Shown here piece after piece: positions 25,529-28,090 of a stretch of 64,000 nt of DNA. Numbering within the stretch: position 1 is the first letter of the stretch; each line of letters opens with the position of its first letter. The stretch spans positions 1-64,000 of the forward strand of contig JAJYVF010000021.1 of assembly GCA_021792135.1 (NCBI GenBank). The letters run 5' to 3'. Made by a program: the position numbers and the translations under genes. Source of the DNA: Acidobacteriota bacterium. Its GTDB lineage: Bacteria; Acidobacteriota; Terriglobia; Terriglobales; Acidobacteriaceae. The notes beneath the pieces are model-generated. The model was given only the letters and a program-made list of their open reading frames with translations. It made no database searches and was not told the origin of the DNA.

Positions 25529-25593
25529 GGGGACCGGGCAGGGGTTTCGCGGACCGGGGCCGACCAGAAAATGGATGTCTCACGTTTCCGTCC

Positions 25594-25616
25594 CCCCCCA
25601 GGTCTATACTGGGGGG
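25594..25616. promoter_or_regulatory. Palindrome overlapping a TATACT hexamer
   Basis: CCCCCCAG and CTGGGGGG form a perfect eight-base inverted repeat around the loop GTCTATA. The loop and right arm together spell TATACT at 25605-25610, a good -10 hexamer. No clear -35 TTGACA lies 17 bases upstream. It is 35 bases before the small membrane protein gene. It could be an operator on a promoter or a terminator hairpin of the preceding operon; a T-tract is absent. Confidence 0.4.
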
Positions 25617-25650
25617 TCTCTGCTCCGCCAGCAGGGAGCTGTCCAGCGCA

Positions 25651-26040
25651 TTGACTGCTCGACCGACATCGACGACCAGATCCAGGGCCTCCGGGTGGCT
25701 GCCCCTGAAGCCCTGTGCTCTCGGCCTTACCGCCCTTGCTGTTGCAGTATTTCTGTGGGGCCTGGCCTATAAGCTGTCGCTCTATCATGGGCGGTCGAAC
25801 ACGACTCCGCGGTTCACGGTCGCCAAGCTGTGGATCGCCCCCAAGGCGTCAGGGCTGACGTCTTCCGCAACGTCCGCGCACCGCGCGCCTCTGACGCCGG
25901 GTCTCGCGCTTCCGGCCGCTCCCCATGCCTGGCACCGACCGGAACTCTCCGCAAATCTGCCGATTGCGCCGATGCGCGGAATCGAGGCTCCCTCATTCTC
26001 CTGTTCCTCCCGCGCTCCCCCATCCCAGCCCCTCGCCTGA
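25651..26040 (+). CDS. Small membrane protein of unknown function
   Basis: A 129-residue frame from a TTG codon with one strong transmembrane segment (about residues 22-41, ALGLTALAVAVFLWGLAYKL) followed by SLYHGRSN. The remainder is a Pro/Ser/Ala-rich, probably disordered tail. The Shine-Dalgarno (GGGAG) is about 12 bases away, longer than ideal. Codon usage matches the neighbours and the frame spans the gap between two operons, so I believe it is real. No family is recognised. It precedes the membrane rhodanese and sigma-factor genes and may share their transcript. Confidence 0.5.
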   Translation: MTARPTSTTRSRASGWLPLKPCALGLTALAVAVFLWGLAYKLSLYHGRSNTTPRFTVAKLWIAPKASGLTSSATSAHRAPLTPGLALPAAPHAWHRPELSANLPIAPMRGIEAPSFSCSSRAPPSQPLA

Positions 26041-26132
26041 CGTAACCAGCACCGCGATTCGGTGGCGGAGGCCTAGTGCCCCGGACCGGTCGCCGTAATT
26101 CCTTTGCCGGTTTCGCTGTGGAGGAGCACATC

Positions 26133-26606
26133 ATGGATTTTCTCTGGGCTCTGACTGCTTTGGCTTTAGGGTTCCTGCTCTACCCTGCCTGGCAGCTCGT
26201 TCGATCCGTGGGGCGAGGTTCGCCTCGCATCTTCGCGCCGCCGCCCGTTTCTCCCGCTGCCAAAGGAGGAAAGATCCACGCATTCAGCGGCGGGCAAATC
26301 CGCAACCTCGAATGGGTTTCCATGGGCCAGTTTACGAGTCTGCTCGCCGAGTCGGACGACCTGGTCGTCATCGATCTTCGGCCGGAAAGTCAGCACCTTC
26401 GGTTGCGGCTTCCGGCCGCGCAGGTGCTCACGATCAGCCCTGACGAACTGCCCGAAGTGCTCGAATGGCTTCCGCGGAATCGAAGCGCGGCCTTCTGCGG
26501 GGCCTCGGGGACTGCTCTTTCCCTGATCCGCGCGAGTTCGTGCATGCGGGGTTCGGCTCCTCTCTATGTGCTGAAGGATGGCTCAGCCTGGGCGGAGGTC
26601 GCATGA
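26133..26606 (+). CDS. Membrane-anchored rhodanese-like protein
   Basis: A 157-residue protein with one N-terminal transmembrane helix (FLWALTALALGFLLYPAWQLV) and a cytoplasmic or periplasmic rhodanese-like domain at about residues 60-150. VVIDLRPESQH (Asp81, Arg83) is the DxR motif, and AAFCGASGTALSL holds the catalytic-loop Cys122. Rhodaneses carry persulfide sulfur on that Cys. GGAG lies in front of the ATG at 26133. The stop overlaps the start of the ECF sigma factor by four bases (ATGA), an unusual partnership that suggests a regulatory link. Confidence 0.82.
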   Translation: MDFLWALTALALGFLLYPAWQLVRSVGRGSPRIFAPPPVSPAAKGGKIHAFSGGQIRNLEWVSMGQFTSLLAESDDLVVIDLRPESQHLRLRLPAAQVLTISPDELPEVLEWLPRNRSAAFCGASGTALSLIRASSCMRGSAPLYVLKDGSAWAEVA

Positions 26607-27316
26607 TGCGGAACGCGGGGATCCCACCGCAGCCGTTGGCCCAGGAGGACAGCTTCTCCGACCTTGTGCGAACGGTTGAGCAGCGGCGCACGCAACTGGT
26701 GCGTGTGGCCCAGCGCATGACGCGCTGTCAGGAGGACGCAGAAGACGTGGTACAGGATTCCGTCCTGAAGGCGCTTGCCAACCTCTCCACCTTCCGCGGC
26801 GATTCGCGGCTGGACACATGGCTTCATGCCATCGTGGTCAACACGGCGCGGAGCCGGCTCCGTTCTCAGTGCGGCCGAGTCTACATCCCGATCGAATCCG
26901 ATGACGAGAGCGAGCGCGACTCTGCGAGGATCGAGCTGCCTCACCCTGGAAAGGATCCGGAGGAATTCTGCAGCACGTACGAGCTGCAGAGGCTGCTGCT
27001 TGCGGAAATTGCCAGCCTCGATCCGATCTACGGGACCCTGATCCGGATGTGCGATCTGGACCAGCGCTCCTATCGTGAGACGGCTCAGGCCCTGCATCTG
27101 AACATCGCCACTGTGAAGGCGCGGCTGTTCCGGGGCCGGGCGCTGTTACGGCGGAAGCTCCGCCGGCATTTGCCGCGGGACCGACGGCAAAGGGATCCGC
27201 TCGGCAAAGGCAAGCGGAAACGCCAGCCCGGGGAGGAGGCCATCGAGCAGGTGGGCCCGGAAGCCGGGGTGGGCAGCGAGCCTGGTTCGCCGGTTCCAGT
27301 GTTAACGGATTGTTAA
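26603..27316 (+). CDS. ECF-type RNA polymerase sigma factor
   Basis: A 237-residue sigma-70 family factor of the extracytoplasmic function type. The sigma-2 region is at about residues 25-95 (EDAEDVVQDSVLKALANLSTF, DSRLDTWLHAIVVNTARSRLR), and sigma-4 at about 130-190 (YRETAQALHLNIATVKARLFRGRALLRRKLR, a helix-turn-helix). A basic then acidic tail of about 45 residues follows and ends in Cys. No classical anti-sigma factor with a zinc-binding HxxxCxxC motif lies beside it. The upstream overlapping rhodanese-like membrane protein is the obvious candidate for a sensing partner. The next gene encodes an exported protein and may be a target. Confidence 0.92.
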   Translation: MMRNAGIPPQPLAQEDSFSDLVRTVEQRRTQLVRVAQRMTRCQEDAEDVVQDSVLKALANLSTFRGDSRLDTWLHAIVVNTARSRLRSQCGRVYIPIESDDESERDSARIELPHPGKDPEEFCSTYELQRLLLAEIASLDPIYGTLIRMCDLDQRSYRETAQALHLNIATVKARLFRGRALLRRKLRRHLPRDRRQRDPLGKGKRKRQPGEEAIEQVGPEAGVGSEPGSPVPVLTDC

Positions 27317-27382
27317 AAACTTAAAACGTCTCCTCGATGCGGGAGTCTCAGTCTTCAGAGGGTCCTTGGAAAGGAGACACTC

Positions 27383-28090
27383 ATGAAGTTTGCATGGCTC
27401 CTGCTTGCGCTGCTGCTGCCACCCGCTCTGCCGGCGCAAAATACCATCCCTGCGGGTACGATTCTTCCGCTTCGTCTGGAAACCACGCTGAAGACCGGCA
27501 GGATCAAAGCTGGCCAGGCCATTCGGGCCGAGGTTATGCAGGACATTCCCGGGACGCGCATTCACAGGCGAGCCCGGGTGTTGGGGCATGTAGTCAGTGC
27601 GGCTCCCGGTCGTCTGGAGCTGCGCTTCGATACGCTGGTGGCGAACGGCCGGCATATTCCGCTGAAGACGAATCTGCGGGCGCTCGCTTCCATGACGGAG
27701 GTGGAGATTGCGCAGACTCCCGAAGGTGGACCGGACCGCGCAACCCCACCGCCCTTCTGGACCACAGAACAGATCGGCGGCGAACAGGTATACCGCGGCG
27801 GCGGCCCTGTGGCCCGCGGCCTGACGCTGGTTGGAAAGCCGACGCCGTATGGAGTGCTCGGCCAGCTCAACAGCAGTCCTCCGTGCCGCGCGGAGATTGC
27901 CGGTAACAGCGCTCCGCAGGCGCTGTGGCTCTTCTCGACGGATGCCTGCGGTCTTTACGGCTTCAACAATCTGAAGATCGGCCATGCGGGACGAACCGAA
28001 CCTGCGGGCAGTATCCTGCTGCTCTCCAAGGGCAGCAAGATCGATCTCCGCAGCGGAAGCGGGCTGCTGTTGCGCGTGCAGGGCTCATAA
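27383..28090 (+). CDS. Exported protein of unknown function
   Basis: A 235-residue protein with a textbook signal peptide (FAWLLLALLLPPALPAQ) and an excellent Shine-Dalgarno (AAAGGAG, six bases before ATG). The mature N-terminal half (IPAGTILPLRLETTLKTGRIKAGQAIRAEVMQDI, then RIHRRARVLGHVV) resembles the beta domain seen in VirB10/TrbI-like and related exported proteins. The C-terminal part has two Cys residues (PCRAEIAG, DACGLYG). Function unknown. It follows the sigma factor by 66 bases, within which GTCTC occurs twice, 17 bases apart, a possible sigma-target feature. Confidence 0.75.
   Translation: MKFAWLLLALLLPPALPAQNTIPAGTILPLRLETTLKTGRIKAGQAIRAEVMQDIPGTRIHRRARVLGHVVSAAPGRLELRFDTLVANGRHIPLKTNLRALASMTEVEIAQTPEGGPDRATPPPFWTTEQIGGEQVYRGGGPVARGLTLVGKPTPYGVLGQLNSSPPCRAEIAGNSAPQALWLFSTDACGLYGFNNLKIGHAGRTEPAGSILLLSKGSKIDLRSGSGLLLRVQGS

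Follow-up and report, generated by a model that had tools for sequence, protein, structure and literature searches.

A candidate self-controlled ECF sigma factor cassette with a membrane-anchored rhodanese-fold protein in the Acidobacteriaceae

The stretch of DNA analysed here (the window) comprises 64,000 nucleotides of contig JAJYVF010000021.1 (assembly GCA_021792135.1, positions 1 to 64,000 of the forward strand) from an Acidobacteriota bacterium of the family Acidobacteriaceae. Its plus strand carries at 25580-28090, in this order, a promoter-like element and the genes of a small single-transmembrane (TM) protein (TMS), a TM-anchored rhodanese-fold protein (RHO), an extracytoplasmic function (ECF) sigma factor (SIG) and a last protein. 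In its fullest order, TMS-RHO-REC-SIG, the cassette to which TMS, RHO and SIG belong also has REC, a protein with a receiver fold that lacks the phospho-acceptor Asp; the window copy has no REC. The pairing of rhodanese and sigma factor looks real, and the redox mechanism proposed for it in an earlier note on this DNA is weakened by Cys loss. The reading favoured here, with the chances for and against it about balanced, is an ECF module that controls itself and has as its regulator a membrane protein with a non-catalytic rhodanese fold, and its basis is gene order, modelled folds, a sigma factor clade, an upstream motif and the loss of the catalytic Cys in half of the homologues. The features of the window cluster are:

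25580-25608, plus strand: ECF-promoter-like element ahead of TMS, TCACGTT (25580-25586), 15 bp, GTCTATA (25602-25608)
25594-25616, strandless: G+C-rich palindrome CCCCCCAG-GTCTATA-CTGGGGGG, centred on GTCTATA
25651-26040, plus strand: TMS, small single-TM protein with a probable TTG start, YKLSLY ... AKLW ... R[S/A/P]PP
26133-26606, plus strand: RHO, TM-anchored rhodanese-fold protein, Cys122 at the catalytic position in FCGASG
26603-27316, plus strand: SIG, ECF sigma factor, ATGA overlap with RHO at 26603-26606
27383-28090, plus strand: last protein, signal-like start by eye, no known family, cassette membership not supported

The small single-pass protein, for which a Kyte-Doolittle scan gives one hydrophobic stretch, the membrane-anchored rhodanese-like protein with its Cys loop and the four-base overlap of the sigma factor gene with it had all been described in the earlier note and were found again. 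SIG matches Pfam Sigma70_r2 over residues 25-89 (E=3.8e-15) and Sigma70_r4_2 over residues 130-182 (E=1.1e-10), as well as TIGR02937 with 80.4 bits against a cut-off of 42.9, and consists of regions 2 and 4 only with a short linker, as an ECF sigma factor requires. The earlier statement that no classical anti-sigma factor is present was borne out among the six window neighbours scanned with Pfam, and by Pfam neither RHO nor TMS has an anti-sigma domain; an adjacent cognate anti-sigma factor is not a feature of every ECF group. Searched with SIG at E<=0.001, the window genome (5.1 Mb) gives 16 matches.

In a FastTree phylogeny of 45 ECF sequences, taken from the cassette-bearing genomes and five other genomes, six cassette sigma factors formed a single clade with support 0.98. 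Four of these share a cassette with RHO, standing directly after it in the window and in G111 and after RHO and REC in G167 and G122 (G, C and L numbers denote genomes, contigs and loci, G000 being the window genome), and another, G574:C1, lies beside a TM stub that by eye resembles the RHO N-terminus. The G574:C1 factor was found only through a search of genomes chosen for having RHO. In 200 family genomes searched without such a choice, with up to 14 candidates scored in each and a threshold of E<=1e-30, the clade members seen were those of the window, G167, G111, G122 and G037, so that clade members occur mostly with the rhodanese (four of the five) and not mostly without it. In the other five genomes reached at this threshold the sigma factors are general ECF ones, and neither RHO nor TMS nor REC was noticed among the called genes of their loci (L028-L032). 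The best intact ECF match was 145-159 bits in ten RHO-bearing genomes outside the clade versus 201-348 bits for clade members. Judged from the counts of four in six clade loci and four in five unpicked ones, the association appears to lie above the level of chance neighbours. Conservation of the pair holds from the side of the sigma factor but is loose from that of RHO, with intact SIG at just 4 of 18 RHO loci.

At E<=1e-12 the RHO profile detected 18 RHO genes among 398 genomes of the family, 15 of which are carriers, and at the same threshold a phylum-wide draw gave RHO in 3 of 396 genomes; in both searches nine candidates per genome were scored and weak relatives may be missed. All three carriers of the phylum-wide draw are Acidobacteriaceae, a spread of the cassette over the phylum was therefore rejected, and as far as sampled the cassette is confined to this family. 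A scan of named genomes gave five RHO loci, four already seen (G167, G083, G122 and G652) and one new (L146, Acidobacteriaceae bacterium isolate bog_368), bringing the total to 19 RHO genes at 18 loci, two of the genes in tandem in G083. TMS is a commoner partner of RHO than SIG is, immediately preceding it in the same orientation at 13 of the 18 loci; it was not found upstream of RHO at G111, G070, G119 and G142, and lies downstream in G579, where an ECF factor of another branch occurs near RHO. REC follows RHO at six loci (G167, G122, G083, G000:C24, G137:C64 and, poorly preserved, L146), with a four-base RHO/REC overlap in G122, G000:C24 and both G083 copies if REC uses its first start codon. 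SIG is intact in the window, G167, G122 and G111 and broken at G137:C524 (L037:6298-7107), where it stands with a REC remnant behind TMS-RHO, a decaying full cassette. The cassette of G574 is split into TMS-RHO at C77 and TMS-TM stub-SIG at C1, and the window genome has at C24 a second cassette, TMS-RHO-REC, without SIG. The contig of G626 stops 0.6 kb past RHO and a downstream partner there cannot be judged.

RHO is a predicted rhodanese fold according to a family profile and an AlphaFold2 model. Alone, the window RHO matches Pfam Rhodanese with E=0.15 and 13 bits, below the cut-off of 22.2, and a single-sequence match at E<=0.1 was obtained for just one of the 19 homologues. The family profile matches the C-terminal part of 6pfz, which we take to be a rhodanese domain, with E=0.00034. 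The model (mean predicted local distance difference test score 80.3, predicted template modelling score 0.61) has an N-terminal helix at 2-27, a low-confidence linker at 29-50 and then an alternating beta/alpha domain, and rhodanese domains are the majority among the 50 Foldseek matches listed of 975. One match of the 975, yeast RDL2, reached E<=0.001, and the template modelling scores on the whole query are low, at about 0.34-0.45, which is in part an effect of including helix and linker in the query length. YgaP, also among the Foldseek matches, is a membrane-bound single-domain rhodanese. RHO has the same fold as YgaP and RDL2 and differs from them at the catalytic Cys, this position being occupied by Cys in 9 and by Tyr in 10 of the 19 RHO proteins, followed by an invariant Gly. 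The Tyr form is present in G167, a genome of the same genus as the window with a RHO 52% identical to that of the window and with SIG after RHO and REC. On this alignment RHO would not be a conserved enzyme; because the catalytic Cys is so often lost, RHO probably acts as a docking part and not as a sulfur or redox sensor. No link of single-domain rhodaneses to a sigma factor was found in the open-licence literature searched.

The receiver-fold protein of the fuller cassettes has likewise to be recognised beyond Pfam, which gave no match for the four REC members tested. The REC profile matches the BfmR receiver (E=0.0022) and the best Foldseek match of a REC structure model, a receiver fold, has E=8.5e-6. 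In the column of the BfmR phospho-acceptor Asp, nine REC proteins have His in six and Asn, Ser and Tyr in one each; in L139, the protein with Tyr, an Asp follows directly and a one-position shift is possible there. A sigma-like part was not seen in REC, nor was a kinase noticed among the cassette genes, in which no search aimed at kinases was made.

Upstream of TMS, 8 of 14 cassettes share a bipartite motif, CAAC(A/G)TT-like and GTCTA(T/A)A separated by 14-15 bases. When a matrix built from the eight sites was tested leave-one-out against 892 control windows, seven sites scored above all controls, and the window site, the weakest, was reached by 8 of the 892. The 40 bp before the motif are not alike between cassettes (mean pairwise identity 0.27, maximum 0.50). 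ECF promoters have AAC at -35 and CGT at -10, as given in an excerpt of PMC8103513; AAC is present in six of the eight sites and CGT in three, the window site having neither. The remaining cassettes scored 18.2 (G502), 14.6 (G626) and 13.1 (G037) or were at background. Outside the training set, a resistance-nodulation-division (RND) operon of the order TMS-adaptor-RND, located near the TMS-REC-SIG genes of G037, has a site scoring 23.3, a value reached by 6 of 1404 windows of the same loci, training sites included. The exact pattern ACRTT-N14/15-GTCTAWA matches four times in the window genome, at its two cassettes and in one repeat found at two contig ends, and in G167 and G574 the cassette is the only match in the genome. 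The repeat lies at the end of G000:C64 (L184) and at the start of G000:C70 (L185), and its pattern is probably due to chance. Directly upstream of SIG genes the scores are 2.2-7.2, as expected inside an operon.

Other bearers of the motif were considered and rejected. Among 23 RND-type TMS loci (L053-L075) the best score was 15.0 (L060), and upstream of the other ECF genes scanned it was 11.8. By position, TMS-RHO lies directly behind the gene of a VWA-type protein at L037 (by Pfam) and at L042, L038 and L133 (by eye); these VWA-linked cassettes were rejected as the motif bearers too, G137 (two loci) and G017 being at background and L133, in G502, giving the 18.2 mentioned above. The palindromic promoter-like element of the earlier note is present in the window, but it is absent from all 13 other upstream regions compared and was rejected as a conserved operator. 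Inverted repeats with arms of at least 8 occur in 3 of the 14 regions and are unrelated in sequence, and the window palindrome is most likely incidental or local.

In the self-controlled module proposed here, the CAAC(A/G)TT-N14/15-GTCTAWA-like sequence ahead of TMS would be the promoter from which SIG most likely transcribes the cassette that encodes it, and the targets of SIG elsewhere would be few. The activity of SIG would be set at the membrane through binding by RHO, whose rhodanese-fold domain on a single TM helix would be used for protein docking rather than as a sulfurtransferase and is predicted to be cytoplasmic because positive charges follow the helix. REC, where present, would help RHO with a receiver fold devoid of the phospho-acceptor Asp, and TMS, the likely envelope-facing member, may act as the sensor. 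The more specific combination of a rhodanese fold as anti-sigma or docking domain, a phosphorylation-dead receiver and a small relative of an RND companion, with the cassette as the main target of the sigma factor, is put forward tentatively and has the chances somewhat against it.

Several observations weigh against the self-controlled module. SIG, intact or broken, is missing from 13 of the 18 RHO loci, and the sixth member of the sigma factor clade, in G037, is accompanied by TMS and REC without RHO. The bipartite motif was picked by eye, and high scores occur within genes: an RND gene of G037 contains a site of 20.2, presumably by chance, and in G652 an ECF gene contains one of 18.1. Across 31 whole genomes the motif pattern is not enriched, with 32 matches versus 62 for the reversed control; the evidence from the motif is thus positional only and any regulon would be small. 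In G083 and G652 the exact-pattern matches are not the cassettes, and the motif stands ahead of TMS-RHO but no member of the SIG clade was found, the best ECF matches of 1.2e-44 and 5.5e-43 being at the general ECF level. This suggests another reader there, or a relic, and argues against SIG as the sole reader.

The best surviving alternative, unlikely on the whole, is that TMS is the real regulator, anti-sigma-like or small and pump-associated, with RHO as an accessory and the cassette serving RND efflux. The window TMS (YKLSLY ... PPP family) has no Pfam match above cut-off. That it is coding is supported by homologues with 8 invariant columns in 11 sequences, and 60 of the 200 family genomes searched contain a TMS relative. 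At each of the 23 loci outside cassettes taken from a longer TMS match list (the L053-L075 above), an HlyD-type RND adaptor homologue stands 3' of TMS on the same strand, identified by Pfam as HlyD_D23/HlyD_3 in both cases tested, and the one pump tested is ACR_tran. By its neighbourhoods TMS appears to be largely an RND-operon companion, the cassette using a branch of that family. These loci, the presence of TMS at five of the six SIG-clade loci and the motif in the RND operon of G037 favour a regulatory TMS, as does, by eye, the divergent arrangement of RHO and an adaptor-like gene in G070, G119 and G142 of one genus, with RND genes following in G119. Most of the 23 loci, however, are without the motif, as is the one TMS-RND operon examined in the window genome, which scored 9.0 (C64, L137; TMS relative at G000:C64:65949-66314); a downstream adaptor was not found at L138 (G000:C74), L133:12320, L038:8728 and L141 (near a contig end); and G111 has RHO-SIG without a detected TMS, in addition to the missing anti-sigma domain. 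The TMS relative at L138:6370-6888 lies by eye beside Rieske/cytochrome b-like genes.

The many RHO loci without SIG would also be accounted for if SIG were an ordinary ECF factor, served by an anti-sigma factor encoded elsewhere, that had landed by chance beside a separate RHO-TMS unit; this is nonetheless quite improbable, given the ATGA overlap in the window and the fact that all six clade members adjoin at least one of TMS, RHO and REC in differing genera and neighbourhoods. About as improbable is the proposal of the earlier note that the rhodanese Cys, according to its persulfide or redox state, lets the sigma factor go or retains it. Tyr replaces this Cys in over half of the RHO proteins including that of G167, which argues against a general persulfide switch, and SIG does end in Cys as had been noted but at a position not conserved among five sequences. 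In its favour are Cys122 of the window, the Cys found in 4 of 5 RHO with intact or broken SIG versus 5 of the other 14 (Fisher p=0.14, not significant), and a second Cys (window Cys137, ..CM.GSAP) at which redox chemistry may be possible, being kept in 8 of the 19 proteins, four Tyr forms among them. To these may be added the redox or anoxia genes found close to single cassettes, namely ScdA/hemerythrin (L033), NifX-type and Usp (L036) and Rieske (L134).

Together with the cation P-type ATPase gene at L033, the VWA gene at L037 and the glycogen phosphorylase genes adjoining six cassettes (L034, L035, L036, L043, L134 and L136, by eye, L036 confirmed by Pfam), these surroundings hint at energy or anoxia stress and at a possible island. 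None of these genes occurs around the window cassette, whose neighbours are an ordinary PfkB-family kinase, nucleoside hydrolase and M24 peptidase (Pfam). The exported protein that had been counted in the cluster has a signal-like N-terminus by eye, but its membership was rejected, as a scan of other loci gave no homologue of it at E<=1; it matches neither Pfam nor NCBIfam. A defence system was also rejected, none of the five proteins having a PADLOC match at E<=0.01.

Classical class I ECF anti-sigma factors are TM proteins encoded next to the ECF factor, and the cassette also has a TM protein gene beside its ECF gene; it differs by the lack of an anti-sigma domain in RHO and TMS. For ECF41, excerpts of PMC3426412 report that the neighbouring gene is the sole target and is preceded by a conserved bipartite promoter, TGTCACA-N16-CGTC, an arrangement resembling the promoter-like motif ahead of the SIG cassette. 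ECF41 has a fused C-terminal regulatory domain and COE neighbours (PMC3426412, same excerpts), whereas SIG is without such a Pfam domain and is accompanied by TMS, RHO and REC. SigE/CseBC and EcfG-NepR-PhyR, ECF factors under two-component or partner-switch control according to an excerpt of PMC8999054, similarly combine a receiver-fold protein with an ECF factor, the REC of the cassette differing in having neither the phospho-acceptor Asp nor a sigma-like part. No description of this cassette was found in the open-licence literature searched, in which the rhodanese-sigma pairing is also undescribed; REC, the common promoter-like motif and the RND link of TMS are additions to what that note contained.

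ECF factors without a recognisable anti-sigma factor are a known gap in bacterial signalling, and the cassette offers a testable case in which enzyme and phosphorelay folds would be reused as protein-interaction parts, two folds having lost their usual chemistry in many members, the rhodanese its Cys and the receiver its Asp. The cassette is compact and lineage-bound, and through it RND efflux operons are linked to a small protein that is uncharacterised. If the more specific combination described above is true, an ECF sigma factor would be controlled at the membrane in a novel way.

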